Shown: piece after piece, positions 1,696 through 16,353 of the stretch
Layout: the number at the start of each line of letters is the position of its first letter
How positions within the stretch are numbered: the stretch's first letter is position 1
DNA from: ANME-2 cluster archaeon
GTDB taxonomy: Archaea; Halobacteriota; Methanosarcinia; Methanosarcinales; Methanocomedenaceae
Assembly: GCA_019429385.1 (NCBI GenBank)
Contig: JAHYIS010000002.1
Span: 62,001-126,000, forward strand
Direction: 5' to 3'
DNA length: 64,000 nt
The notes under the pieces: generated by a model
What the model saw: only the letters and a program-made list of their open reading frames with translations
What the model was told of the DNA's origin: nothing
The model's database searches: none
Position numbers and translations under genes: made by a program

Positions 1696-2520
1696 TTACT
1701 GTGGTTTCCTGCCTGCATAGATACCGTACCCGTAATAGTCCATAAAATCCTTTGGAATACCCCTTGCATCTTTAACCATATCATTGATAGCTTTGCGATA
1801 CGCGGGTTTTGTGAGATATACCCACAGCATCCTGTATGCTGCCATAAGTGCCGGGGTCAGGCCGTTCATTTTAATCTCGCTGATAGCCTGTTCCAGTTTT
1901 TTGATCTTTCTGGGCCTGGCAATTGTCTCCTTAAGGCCTGCGTCCTCCAGCAACCGTTCCCAGCCTGCAGCAGTCTCTGGTTTGACCCCGCCGATGGCAC
2001 GTATCCCGTACTCTGCCATTTCCTGTGTAGGCTCCTGTATCCAGGTGACTTCGTTCAGTCCGATGTACCCACCACGTTTCACAACCCTTACATATTCGCT
2101 GAGAGCTTTTGCCTTATCTGCCGGAAAGGAGGTCACTGATTCACTTATGGCTGCATCGAATATAGTATCCTCAAAGGGTAGGTCCTGCACATCTGCCACC
2201 CTGAACTCAATCCTGTCTGCCAGACCTTGCTTGTGTGCTCTCTTGCTGGAGCGGTCCACCATTCCCTTTGAAATGTCTATCCCGATTATCCTGCAGCCAT
2301 ATATTTTCGCTATCTTGCAGGCAGATAAACCGCTGCCGCATCCTACGACCAGCAGGATTTTGTTTTCATCTATGTGGCACAGTTCGACCAGTTCTTTTGT
2401 AGCGTCCAGGCCGCCTGCATGTTTGGTGATGCCTATCTCAGCCTGCACATCAAAGTAAGGATTTTCCAGTTCAATTATGTCTTCTTTCTTCATTTCGCTT
2501 CCGCTACGCCACTGTTTCAT
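1696..2520 (-). CDS. Class I SAM-dependent methyltransferase (UbiE-like fold)
   Basis: The 274-residue protein carries the glycine-rich SAM-binding motif I (LLVVGCGSGLS, near residue 56), an acidic residue at the end of strand 2 (IIGIDIS), and a motif resembling VADVQDLPFED. This is the Methyltransf_11/25 fold used for small molecules, lipids or quinones; the substrate is unknown. A second in-frame ATG at codon 10 (2493) is an alternative start. It is a single-gene unit with no close partner on its strand. Confidence 0.8.
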   Translation of the reverse strand: MKQWRSGSEMKKEDIIELENPYFDVQAEIGITKHAGGLDATKELVELCHIDENKILLVVGCGSGLSACKIAKIYGCRIIGIDISKGMVDRSSKRAHKQGLADRIEFRVADVQDLPFEDTIFDAAISESVTSFPADKAKALSEYVRVVKRGGYIGLNEVTWIQEPTQEMAEYGIRAIGGVKPETAAGWERLLEDAGLKETIARPRKIKKLEQAISEIKMNGLTPALMAAYRMLWVYLTKPAYRKAINDMVKDARGIPKDFMDYYGYGIYAGRKPQ

Positions 2521-2573
2521 ACTACGGTTCTCGTAAAATAATGGTATACTTACAATAAATATATTTTGATTGT

Positions 2574-2723
2574 ATGGAGGAGGAAATAGGTGAGTTCGAT
2601 TGGGAATATTGGGACATTTCGAGGGAGTTTACCGTATATACTATAACATCAGCATCCAGTCAATTACCCGGGCAGCGCTATGCACAAATTATGAGCATCT
2701 CGAGGATGCTCAAAACTATTTAA
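2574..2723 (+). CDS. Possible 49-residue micro-ORF (uncertain)
   Basis: In the spacer between two minus-strand genes an ATG frame of 49 codons runs to TAA. Its start is acidic and aromatic (MEEEIGEFDWEYWDISREF), a composition more protein-like than random. It is preceded by an AT-rich stretch but no clear ribosome site. The last part overlaps a perfect 7-bp inverted repeat (GAGCATC/GATGCTC, 2693-2711). It could be a remnant or chance. Confidence 0.2.
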   Translation: MEEEIGEFDWEYWDISREFTVYTITSASSQLPGQRYAQIMSISRMLKTI

Positions 2724-2784
2724 CCATCCGCTCATCAAGCATCTAGAAAAAATGAAGCCGTGAAAACAAAGGAAGCAGCTAAAA

Positions 2785-3144
2785 TTATTTTTTAATTATC
2801 CTTATCCACCGATACATAAGCCATTCTACCAGTAAGATAGCAACAAATAGTTCTGTCACGGCAAATAATCGCATGGGAAATGTTGCTGAAAAAGTTTCAT
2901 AATAAAATTCGGGGTGTCCCAAACCTAAATATTCAATGAAATTATGGATTGAGATCAATAATCCTACAATAAATATTATCACAACATTCTTCATTACAAA
3001 ATTGTCTGAAAGAAATACACGTGCTCTCAATATTTCAATATTCACACTTTTCAATGATGAGAATAATTTTAGAAAAAGAAATATTCCGAATATTCCAAAA
3101 ATTACTGTGATACCGGAAATAAACGTCGTTGTATTTTCATACAT
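2785..3144 (-). CDS. Small membrane protein of unknown function
   Basis: About 119 residues with three predicted membrane segments: near residues 9-27 (ISGITVIFGIFGIFLFLKLF), 53-70 (VVIIFIVGLLISIHNF) and 91-109 (LFAVTELFVAILLVEWLMY), ending in a basic tail. I chose the ATG preceded by GGTTGATC; a TTG three codons earlier is possible. The family is not recognised. Codon use is more AT-rich than in the neighbouring genes. No operon partner is visible. Confidence 0.55.
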   Translation of the reverse strand: MYENTTTFISGITVIFGIFGIFLFLKLFSSLKSVNIEILRARVFLSDNFVMKNVVIIFIVGLLISIHNFIEYLGLGHPEFYYETFSATFPMRLFAVTELFVAILLVEWLMYRWIRIIKK

Positions 3145-3270
3145 GTTGATCAACCAATGATATATGCATTTTATAAAGGTATTATTTATACATACCTATT
3201 TTTTTTGGATAAACAGTATACACCAGAATAATTGATTCTCAATTGATTTCCTATCAAGTTCATATGGATT

Positions 3271-13802: not shown

Positions 13803-14504
13803 ATGGAACGTTATTCCCTGGGCATTGATAAACTGGATGAGAACATAAACGGGATAAGAGGTGGTTCGAATATCATGATAATCGGACCGCCCATGAGCGG
13901 TAAGGAAACCATTGTCAACAATATTGTCTACAAGGGATTAAAAACAGGTGACGCTGCGGTAATTGTAACCACACGGGAACCCGGCGAGAATGTTGTTGAT
14001 TGGTTCAATTATAATAATCTGGATATTCCCCTGGACCATCTTGGCATTGTAGATTGTGTGACCAAGACGTTGGGCGTCCCCACATCTGATACGGAAACTA
14101 TCAGGAGGGCATCCAGTCCTGTTGATCTGACCGGTATCGGGGTTAAGATCAGTCAATTCCTCGAAGAATTCTGGATGAAAAAGAACATACGAAAGACCTG
14201 GCTATGTATCAACTCATTATCAACTATTTTGATGTATTCCAATATCCAGACCGTTTTCCGGTTCCTGCATGTTTTCACGGGAAGGGTAAAAGCTTCAGGG
14301 GCTATTGGTATTTATGTAGTGGAAGATGGGATGCATGATAACCAGGCTGTTGCCACTTTAAAACAACTTTTTGATGGTGTTATTGAAATAAGGCAGGAAA
14401 ATGATATTCATTACATCAGGACAACGGGCATGAGCCAGAAACCATCTCCCTGGTACGAGTACTCAATTGAAGGAGCGAAACTTGTTTTAAAGGATGGTGA
14501 GTGA
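13803..14504 (+). CDS. KaiC-like RecA-superfamily ATPase (single domain)
   Basis: The 233-residue protein is a one-domain KaiC/RadA-like P-loop protein. It opens with YSLGIDKLDENINGIRGGS, typical of the family, and has a Walker A (G28-P-P-M-S-G-K34-E-T). The Walker B strand reads WLCINSLS, with Asn137 where KaiC has Asp (hhhDSLS), so hydrolysis may be weak. Such archaeal proteins act as ATP-dependent signalling or assembly factors (FlaH is one). A GGAG site precedes the ATG. It is the first gene of a tight three-gene set; its TGA overlaps the region of the next start. Confidence 0.85.
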   Translation: MERYSLGIDKLDENINGIRGGSNIMIIGPPMSGKETIVNNIVYKGLKTGDAAVIVTTREPGENVVDWFNYNNLDIPLDHLGIVDCVTKTLGVPTSDTETIRRASSPVDLTGIGVKISQFLEEFWMKKNIRKTWLCINSLSTILMYSNIQTVFRFLHVFTGRVKASGAIGIYVVEDGMHDNQAVATLKQLFDGVIEIRQENDIHYIRTTGMSQKPSPWYEYSIEGAKLVLKDGE

Positions 14505-14506
14505 TT

Positions 14507-15679
14507 TTGGCTGAAACGGGTATACCAAAACTGGATGAATACCTGAACGGAGGAATCCCTAAAGGGAAATCGATGATATATTTCAACCATCCTGGTGTTG
14601 AAGGTGATGTGTTTGGCATGCAGACCCTTTACCACAATCTCGCAAAGGGTGGTACCTGTGTGTACGTGACATCCAGTGCAAACCCGGAAACCTTGAAGGA
14701 CCAGTTCAATGATTTAGGGTGGAATATCCGGCAATACGGTGAACGGCTTTTAATAATTGATGGATATTCATCCTTGATTGGTGGACTTTCGAACGAGAAT
14801 TATGTGGTTTCTGACCCGGAAAGTATTGACAGCATGACTGAGATGATAGACCGCGCCATGAGGGATGTGCCGAAAGGTTCGATCATCATGGTCGGTTCTT
14901 TATCGACGATAATGGACCTGTGTGGTGAGGAGGATACCCTTAATGCCGTAAAGATGTGGAACAAGATGGCAATGGTGAAGGAACACGTATTCATTTACAA
15001 TTTCACGGCATGGCCTTATGATGAAAATACCCTGAAACGCATTAAAAATGAGATTTTCAACTGTGTCATAAGCATTGGAGGTATTGCGGAACGTGTCATT
15101 TTCGGGCAGTACTTTGGTGTGCTTAAAGCGGACTGGTCAAAAATTGAAATGAACTCAATGTTGTTCAGGATATTGCGACCGGGGGGTATAAGGATATATA
15201 TACCAAAGATACTGGTAACAGGACCATTTAATGCAGGAAAGTCATCTTTTATCCATTCCCTGTCTACCAGAGCAGTATCGGTGGACCGGCTTGGTACAAC
15301 AATCGCTCTTGACCACGGTCATATCGACTATAAAGGCTTTAGCGCTGATATTTTCGGGACTCCGGGTCAGGAACGTTTCGATCCTATTATTAAAATGATA
15401 AGTGGTGAAGCCATGGGGATTTTCCTGGTAGTGGATTCAACATTACCCAAAGATTTTGTAAGAGCAAAACAAATGCTGGATATTACCAAAGGGTATGGTC
15501 TTCCGTATATTATTGTTGCCAATAAGCAAGACTTGCCGGGTGCCCTGTCTGTGAATGAGATCCGCAATCACTTTAATATACCAGAAGATGTACCTATTGT
15601 TCCAACAGTAGCGACCAGTAAGAAAGGTATATATGAAGCATTTGATATACTGGTGCAAAAAATTACCGGAGGTAACTAA
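14507..15679 (+). CDS. Fusion of a degenerate KaiC-like domain with a Ras/Arf-like small GTPase
   Basis: A protein of about 390 residues with two P-loop domains. Residues 1-225 follow the KaiC fold (GIPKLDEYLNGGIPKGKSM), but the Walker A position reads NHPGVEGD (27-34), lacking GK[ST], and Walker B reads VGSLS (G130 in place of Asp). This half is probably a pseudo-ATPase. Residues 232-390 form an intact small GTPase: G1 GPFNAGKS (239-246), switch threonines GTT, G3 D281-x-x-G in DIFGTPGQERF with the catalytic-type Gln, G4 NKQD (339-342), G5 ATS. The start is TTG after GGTGA; a GTG six bases earlier is possible. It probably works with the Roadblock protein encoded next. Confidence 0.88.
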   Translation: MAETGIPKLDEYLNGGIPKGKSMIYFNHPGVEGDVFGMQTLYHNLAKGGTCVYVTSSANPETLKDQFNDLGWNIRQYGERLLIIDGYSSLIGGLSNENYVVSDPESIDSMTEMIDRAMRDVPKGSIIMVGSLSTIMDLCGEEDTLNAVKMWNKMAMVKEHVFIYNFTAWPYDENTLKRIKNEIFNCVISIGGIAERVIFGQYFGVLKADWSKIEMNSMLFRILRPGGIRIYIPKILVTGPFNAGKSSFIHSLSTRAVSVDRLGTTIALDHGHIDYKGFSADIFGTPGQERFDPIIKMISGEAMGIFLVVDSTLPKDFVRAKQMLDITKGYGLPYIIVANKQDLPGALSVNEIRNHFNIPEDVPIVPTVATSKKGIYEAFDILVQKITGGN

Positions 15680-15680
15680 G

Positions 15681-16046
15681 ATGGAATCGACTATTGATAT
15701 GCTCGAGAAAGTGCTCACTGACCTGAAGAAAGTGGGTGGAGTCGAAGCCAGTGCTGCTGCCAGTCGTGATGGGCTGTTGATGAAAGCAATTATGCCTTCG
15801 GGACAACATGCGGAAACTTTTGCTGCAATGTCAGCCACTATGCTGGGTGCAGCAGAGACTGCCACCACAGAGTTGGGAAAAGGCATTCCTGAGCGGGTCA
15901 TTGTGGAATCGGACCATGGCAAACTGATCGCGACAGGTGCGGGACCCAAAGCCCTGTTGGTACTGTTGACAACGCCTGATGCAGGACTTGGACTGATATT
16001 ACTTGAACTGGACAAGGCTGCACGGAAAGTAAAGGAACTTTTGTAG
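15681..16046 (+). CDS. Roadblock/LC7-domain protein (MglB-like GTPase regulator)
   Basis: The 121-residue protein is a single Roadblock/LC7 domain (GVEASAAASRDGLLMKA, then a central helix and the ESDHGKLIATGAGPKALLVL strands). Proteins of this superfamily bind small GTPases as dimers and act as activators or scaffolds, as MglB does for MglA. The ATG has a strong GGAGGT site that lies inside the end of the GTPase gene, one base after its stop. This placement makes it the likely partner of the fusion GTPase. Upstream in-frame starts lie inside the GTPase gene and are not used. Confidence 0.92.
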   Translation: MESTIDMLEKVLTDLKKVGGVEASAAASRDGLLMKAIMPSGQHAETFAAMSATMLGAAETATTELGKGIPERVIVESDHGKLIATGAGPKALLVLLTTPDAGLGLILLELDKAARKVKELL

Positions 16047-16077: not shown

Positions 16078-16353
16078 ATGAATCTAACGACGTATGACCT
16101 GAAACGTGATGCTGTGCATTTGAGCCCTCTATTGAATGTGGGCAAGAACGGCATTACTGATTCTCTTGTGGAAGAACTGCTAAATCAACTTAAGCAGAAT
16201 AAACTTGTGAAAATAAAAATACTTAAATCAGCAGCTGTTGGTAGCACTGACCGCATGGCGTTGGCAGAGGAGCTATCAAGGCGAACCGGTACCCAGCTTG
16301 TGGAAGTACGGGGAAGTAATGCTGTATTGTACCAGAAAAGAGGGCGAAAATAG
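16078..16353 (+). CDS. CRS1/YhbY (CRM) domain RNA-binding protein
   Basis: The 91-residue protein is a single CRM domain: HLSPLLNVGKNGITDSLVEE, then LVKIKIL and LVEVRGSNAVLYQKR. YhbY-type proteins bind ribosomal RNA and pre-50S particles, so a role in ribosome assembly is likely. The location just ahead of ribosomal protein genes fits. It ends with a basic tail. Confidence 0.9.
   Translation: MNLTTYDLKRDAVHLSPLLNVGKNGITDSLVEELLNQLKQNKLVKIKILKSAAVGSTDRMALAEELSRRTGTQLVEVRGSNAVLYQKRGRK

Follow-up and report, generated by a model that had tools for sequence, protein, structure and literature searches.

The window (the whole 64,000-nucleotide stretch of DNA that was analysed) contains three consecutive genes encoding a KaiC-like protein, a fusion of a KaiC-like domain with a small GTPase, and a Roadblock/LC7 protein (Table 1). 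Only 2 bases separate the KaiC-like gene from the fusion and 1 base separates the fusion from the Roadblock gene; if the fusion starts at the alternative in-frame GTG at 14501 rather than at the TTG at 14507, it overlaps the upstream stop by 4 bases. Coordinates and Pfam domains thus bear out the three-gene set, its order and its spacing of one or two bases as described in the earlier note on this DNA. By Pfam, the window operon comprises KaiC, fusion, Roadblock, YhbY and S19e genes.

Table 1. Genes and domains of the module in the window.
Feature	Position	Strand	Evidence
KaiC-like protein (DUF7504 type), 233 aa	13803-14504	+	Pfam DUF7504 E=1.9e-27, KaiC E=1.1e-9
KaiC+GTPase fusion, 390 aa	14507-15679	+	Pfam KaiC E=6.5e-21, residues 3-232; Arf E=1.6e-13 and Ras E=3e-11, residues 234-386
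N-terminal iKaiC domain of fusion, residues 1-228	14507-15190	+	Pfam KaiC 6.5e-21; Foldseek
C-terminal MglA-family G domain of fusion, residues 229-390	15191-15679	+	Pfam, motifs, tree, AF2 model
Roadblock/LC7 protein, MglB-like, 121 aa	15681-16046	+	Pfam Robl_LC7 E=5.2e-15
CRM/YhbY-type protein	16078-16353	+	CRS1_YhbY 5.8e-21; conserved downstream neighbour, putative module member

The same fusion and gene order recur in other Methanosarcinales and ANME genomes, so the module that the earlier note reported extends beyond one assembly. We found the fusion in 73 of the 238 genomes of the class and, by a profile search of the phylum, in 63 of 394 genomes, and a scan of contigs from 84,980 species returned 86 relatives, including ANME-2 cluster, Methanoperedens and a Methanosarcinaceae archaeon. 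Full-length fusions are also present in Methanocella (M. paludicola and MRE50), in an Archaeoglobi-like family without mcrA, whose one-contig genome is presumably Archaeoglobus veneficus, and in several alkane-oxidiser-like lineages whose mcrA is divergent; Methanomicrobiales-type genomes carry a fusion with a diverged KaiC half. The idea of an ANME-only marker was rejected, as the module is also found in Methanocella, Archaeoglobi-like and Methanomicrobiales-type genomes. Where ANME-type loci have room for the neighbouring genes, the window arrangement (type A: KaiC, fusion, Roadblock) has KaiC upstream at 57/57 loci and Roadblock downstream at 60/60. A second arrangement (type B: Roadblock, fusion, KaiC) holds at 19/19 loci with room; the genome of the window itself carries one such copy, on contig 1, behind PAS/STAS sensors. 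Because all three proteins are conserved in the same order in dozens of species, the arrangement in the window is not due to chance. Methanosarcinaceae methanogens (G081, G149, G121 and others) have neither the fusion nor a Roadblock above threshold; both are present in methane- and alkane-oxidising relatives within the class. At the Methanomicrobiales-type loci (L140-L145), a diphthine-synthase-like gene follows the KaiC and diverged fusion pair in 6/6 cases.

The GTPase half of the window fusion carries a full set of G motifs (G1 GPFNAGKSS, G2 GTTIALD, G3 FGTPGQERF and G4 NKQD), and these are nearly invariant among the aligned fusion proteins (GPxxAGKS/T, Thr-Thr, FGTPGQ and NKxD, respectively). 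The Thr-Thr of switch I/G2, in which Thr replaces the arginine finger of group 1, is present in 102/102 aligned fusion proteins. At G3, GTPGQ stands in place of DxxGQ and is invariant in group A save for one Q to H replacement (one row being incomplete) and fixed in type B; in the Methanomicrobiales-type versions (n=6), GTPG is fixed and Q is variable in 2/6. GTPGQ together with the threonine is the signature of MglA groups 2-5, which are coupled to Roadblock proteins (Wuichet and Sogaard-Andersen, PMC4316618). An intact Ras/Arf-type GTPase had been proposed for this domain; the intactness stands, and the Ras/Arf assignment gives way to MglA. Members of groups 2-5 are single-domain proteins of 150-240 aa (PMC4316618), and the fusion has two domains and 390 aa; going by the sequence of its G domain, it is a member of the MglA family, though not by its architecture. 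In a quick G-domain tree, 41/41 fusion sequences formed one clade with moderate support (SH-aLRT 85), outside which fell 14 stand-alone archaeal MglA proteins and the bacterial CvnD and Thermus types. The fusion clade was set apart from ARF1/HRAS with an SH-aLRT of 96 in this quick search, which had very long outgroup branches and no Rup in the tree; the Myxococcus MglA, HRAS and ARF1 sequences sit on long branches. An AlphaFold (AF2) model of the fusion reached a mean pLDDT of 90.7 and a pTM of 0.83. Because the G domain belongs to the MglA family (GTPGQ, Thr-Thr), a Roadblock partner is expected.

The KaiC parts, on the other hand, are degenerate. At the Walker A position of the fused domain we read HPGVEGDVFG, in which the lysine is lost, and the 102 fusion proteins in the alignment share this loss and keep the G motifs (their Walker A was scored by alignment column, a regular expression having given false matches on the GGIPKGKS turn). 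The separate window KaiC keeps the lysine but has Glu in place of the Mg2+-binding Thr/Ser (GPPMSGKE), and Asn replaces Asp in its Walker-B region (WLCINSLST); its group-A orthologues have Lys in 69/69, E/D as the next residue in 63/69 and a Walker B Asn in 57/69. Neither window KaiC therefore has the Walker A (GxxxxGK[TS]) and Walker B Asp of an active KaiC ATPase, and the suggestion that KaiC-like proteins act as signalling ATPases finds no support at this locus. Since neither KaiC unit has an ordinary Walker A, only the G domain of the window module is clearly intact as an NTPase. Type B partner KaiCs have a canonical GPPKTGKS and a Walker B Asp (lysine in 17/19), and the separate KaiC of the Methanomicrobiales-type loci (L140-L145) has lost the Walker lysine as well. 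The separate KaiC and the fusion of the window each have one KaiC domain rather than the double CI-CII arrangement of the circadian clock, and neither KaiA nor KaiB was recognised among the module neighbours examined. The best solved match of the fusion model in Foldseek was PH0284 (2dr3, TM-score 0.81-0.85 by target), among archaeal KaiC-like structures; as KaiC folds rank first, Foldseek on both models is uninformative about GTPase-Roadblock contact.

KaiC could alternatively be a clock-like or general signalling hub, with the GTPase as one of many interchangeable output domains, an explanation that overlaps with the switch model developed below. The iKaiC hub model is reportedly that of Makarova, Galperin and Koonin. 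The window's genome does hold many KaiC paralogues, and archaeal iKaiC (inactivated KaiC) fusions to receiver (REC), DUF835 and MEDS domains are documented as lineage-specific outputs (PMC5847659). However, it is the GTPase that has retained its catalytic motifs and KaiC that has lost them, the fusions form a single clade across several lineages, and the Roadblock is a constant member; the GTPase therefore looks like the core of the module, not an add-on, and we consider an interchangeable output domain unlikely.

The window Roadblock matches an archaeal Roadblock structure (7f8m, 4.1e-18) and carries an Asp-Gly pair (SRDGLL), a pair reported in MglB proteins coupled to MglA groups 2-5 (PMC4316618); with this pair and its Roadblock/LC7 fold, it has the features of an MglB-type Roadblock. 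RDGLL is at least 90% conserved in type A, and EGLL in type B. In alignment A4, the one used, the Roadblock follows the fusion in the same frame once a single stop codon is read through. Roadblock genes occur in 73/73 fusion-bearing genomes of the class and in 5/165 without the fusion, related genomes not being independent, and the single Roadblock gene of the one-contig Archaeoglobus-like genome is located in the module. The Methanomicrobiales-type versions have no adjoining Roadblock, and Roadblocks are found elsewhere in those genomes. In the one-contig genome of Methanocella paludicola, one frame of 546 codons encodes iKaiC, G domain and Roadblock in series, and this triple fusion is strong evidence that GTPase and Roadblock work together. 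The earlier proposal of a GTPase-Roadblock switch is thus strengthened by the MglA motifs, by a Roadblock adjoining the fusion at 79/79 ANME-type loci with room, by the 73/73 co-occurrence and by the triple fusion. The 2.4 Mb genome of the window has nine Roadblock genes, one of which, on contig 5, contains an in-frame TAA. On its contig 15 (L009), a Roadblock gene (1480-1845) is followed, with 8 bases between, by a gene for a longer KaiC-like protein (1854-3266).

An MglA-family GTPase with a Roadblock could also serve motility or polarity, as MglA-MglB does in Myxococcus, by determining where on the cell pili, archaella or surface structures bearing cytochromes are located, and Roadblock arCOG02603 and KaiC ATPases have been reported close to the type IV pili loci of archaea (PMC4858521). 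However, no pilus or archaellum gene was recognised among the recurrent neighbours identified by profile, and Methanocella paludicola carries the module but has neither flagella genes nor observed motility (PMC3146512). The link to motility, polarity or surface assembly that the earlier note had raised finds no support, with no such gene recognised among the characterised recurrent neighbours (YhbY/S19e/PDCD5, V4R, PAS-STAS and tetrapyrrole genes, most neighbours being unannotated), and we regard such a role as quite improbable.

Beyond the Roadblock, a YhbY (CRM) gene follows at nearly all ANME-2 (2a/b, 2c, 2d) and ANME-3-like window-type loci with room, frequently with a 4-base overlap, and S19e-PDCD5 follow in the window-type loci of ANME-2a/b and 2d. 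A role in ribosome biogenesis or translation, to which this linkage of the window-type module might point, is most improbable, because the linkage is absent from the second copy in the same genome, from Archaeoglobi-like, Methanocella and Methanomicrobiales-type loci and from the JdFR-19, CSMAG_2992 and CSMAG_2293 loci, and Methanosarcinaceae without the module still have S19e-PDCD5. Insertion of the module into a universal ribosomal operon was likewise rejected: in methanogens that lack it, S19e-PDCD5 are retained and preceded by adenylosuccinate synthase, and the sequence read there gave no match to YhbY.

Sensor genes adjoin the module in several relatives. In the Archaeoglobi-like family, a V4R gene lies directly after the Roadblock in 10/10 genomes examined, usually with a 4-base overlap; ANME-2c type B operons have V4R upstream, and one alkane-oxidiser-like genome (f33 lineage) has three V4R genes beside the module. 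Because the genomes counted hold only 2-6 V4R genes each, three separate linkages are unlikely to have arisen by chance. The module-linked V4R proteins match phenol-sensor and MJ1460 structures, and V4R is homologous to the TRAPP subunit Bet3/TRAPPC3 (PMC2253512). Type B loci of ANME-2a/b have PAS and PAS-STAS proteins upstream, with a STAS part that matches stressosome RsbR structures (E=9.5e-8). No V4R gene lies beside either module copy of the window genome. On contig 13 of that genome (L013), a V4R-Roadblock pair (833-1471 and 1477-1845, 5 bases apart) has no GTPase match in the 3.3 kb read. Between V4R and Roadblock at the ANME-2c type B loci L108, L112, L117, L118 and L120-L124 there are two conserved Cys-containing families, c14 and c25 (about 150-170 aa), and a DUF3795-like protein without a clear family match; c14 and c25 were rejected as further V4R domains at hhalign probabilities of about 2% and 1%.

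Tetrapyrrole genes form another group of neighbours. Precorrin-2 dehydrogenase and AhbA/AhbB adjoin the module in Archaeoglobi-like genomes. In genome G008 the adjoining genes are those for AhbD (heme b synthase) and AhbA, which follow the Roadblock after 24 bases, and AhbD and AhbA genes also lie near two ANME-2a type B loci, including that of the window's own genome. Nearly all of these matches exceed curated cut-offs; in one Archaeoglobi-like fusion, the AhbA half, at 137 and 130 bits, falls short of its cut-off of 140 and the AhbB half passes. The linkage is patchy in ANME-2a, where two type B loci are positive and others with long flanks are negative. Radical-SAM genes 5 kb upstream in ANME-3-like loci fell below the AhbD cut-off and were rejected as a heme linkage. 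A linkage to multiheme cytochromes was also rejected, since an ORF with at least three CxxCH motifs was found at two loci only. The window copy has no sensor or heme gene beside it, its neighbours being YhbY, S19e and PDCD5.

We think it probable that the three genes encode a GTPase switch complex that is built on a KaiC-fold platform, regulated by the Roadblock and fed by a ligand or by redox state. The MglA-family G domain, the only part with the full set of catalytic motifs, would act as the timer, and the Roadblock, which is probably homodimeric like MglB and the Roadblocks of Asgard archaea, would bind the G domain and set its nucleotide state. The fused iKaiC and the separate degenerate KaiC would together form a platform, possibly a ring, that gathers several G domains and may still bind ATP via the separate KaiC; in type B, ATP state could feed in, because the partner KaiC keeps a canonical Walker A. 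Input, with the signal presumably running from a ligand through a sensor to the switch, would most likely come from the small-molecule or redox sensors encoded alongside in relatives (V4R and the RsbR-related PAS-STAS proteins). Given the linkage of siroheme/heme genes in three lineages, tetrapyrrole or redox state is the best lead for the output. Against the proposed switch, the sensor and heme neighbours vary between lineages and are missing beside the window copy, and the Methanomicrobiales-type fusions stand without an adjoining Roadblock.

Most of what is known about archaeal small GTPases and their Roadblock partners comes from sequences, and it is difficult to assign partners to them. 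The module offers cognate pairs that are directly testable, with GTPase, regulator and probable sensors encoded together, and fused in one cultivated species; it is present in the cultivable genus Methanocella and probably in Archaeoglobi. For the Asgard isolate MK-D1, GTPase genes are generally not in operons with Roadblock or TRAPPC3 genes (PMC10933270). Within the class, the module marks methane- and alkane-oxidising archaea as against their methanogenic relatives, which makes it a candidate for a signalling system in organisms that play a central part in the removal of methane. The module is, in addition, a case of an inactivated KaiC used with a conserved GTPase. Our literature search, outside which the Makarova 2017 mBio KaiC-hub paper fell, returned no account of a KaiC-GTPase fusion or of GTPase-Roadblock-V4R operons.

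Among known systems, the MglA-MglB pairs of Myxococcus and Thermus share with the module an MglA-family G domain with a GTPGQ-type G3 and a Roadblock encoded alongside, and regulation of one GTPase by a Roadblock dimer would be expected here as well. In contrast to these pairs, the archaeal G domain forms the C-terminal half of a fusion with KaiC, is accompanied by a further KaiC-like protein and has Thr-Thr, as in groups 2-5, rather than the arginine finger of group 1. The stand-alone archaeal MglA proteins (group 4, Wuichet and Sogaard-Andersen 2014) have identical G motifs, come from the same phylum and are the nearest stand-alone archaeal relatives found; however, they are 160-200 aa long and without KaiC, and at the 15 loci examined no Roadblock match lay within about 2.4 kb. 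The Streptomyces conservons CvnABCD and the Thermus plasmid DUF4388-GTPase-Roadblock-protoglobin operons (MglA groups 2 and 5) likewise combine an MglA-type GTPase, a Roadblock and sensor genes in one operon, but the archaeal loci examined have KaiC-fold partners instead of a histidine kinase or DUF742, and neither CvnA nor CvnC is among the members of the window operon or the characterised recurrent neighbours of the module elsewhere. At the Thermus plasmid loci L205 and L209, protoglobin genes (a heme-based sensor fold) lie beside the MglA-type GTPase and Roadblock, an echo of the archaeal heme linkage.

As in the archaeal iKaiC proteins, a KaiC fold with a lost Walker A serves as a non-catalytic unit joined to a signalling domain, but the partner here is an intact GTPase rather than the published REC, DUF835 or MEDS (PMC5847659). 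TRAPP and Ragulator/Rag of eukaryotes and their Asgard relatives resemble the Archaeoglobi-like, ANME-2c type B and f33 operons in combining a Ras-superfamily GTPase, a Roadblock and V4R. They differ from them in that the archaeal GTPase is of the MglA type, not Rab or Rag, and stands with a KaiC platform; no longin subunit was found, and V4R is missing from the window copy, neither module copy of the window genome having the set of V4R with Roadblock and GTPase. We put forward only tentatively, as a possibility we rather doubt, that in non-Asgard archaea a translation-coupled GTPase, a Roadblock and a TRAPPC3-fold V4R sensor on a pseudo-KaiC platform might constitute a ligand-gated GTPase exchange complex with parts like those of eukaryotic TRAPP. 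If true, this would provide a tractable prokaryotic model for the origin of such complexes.
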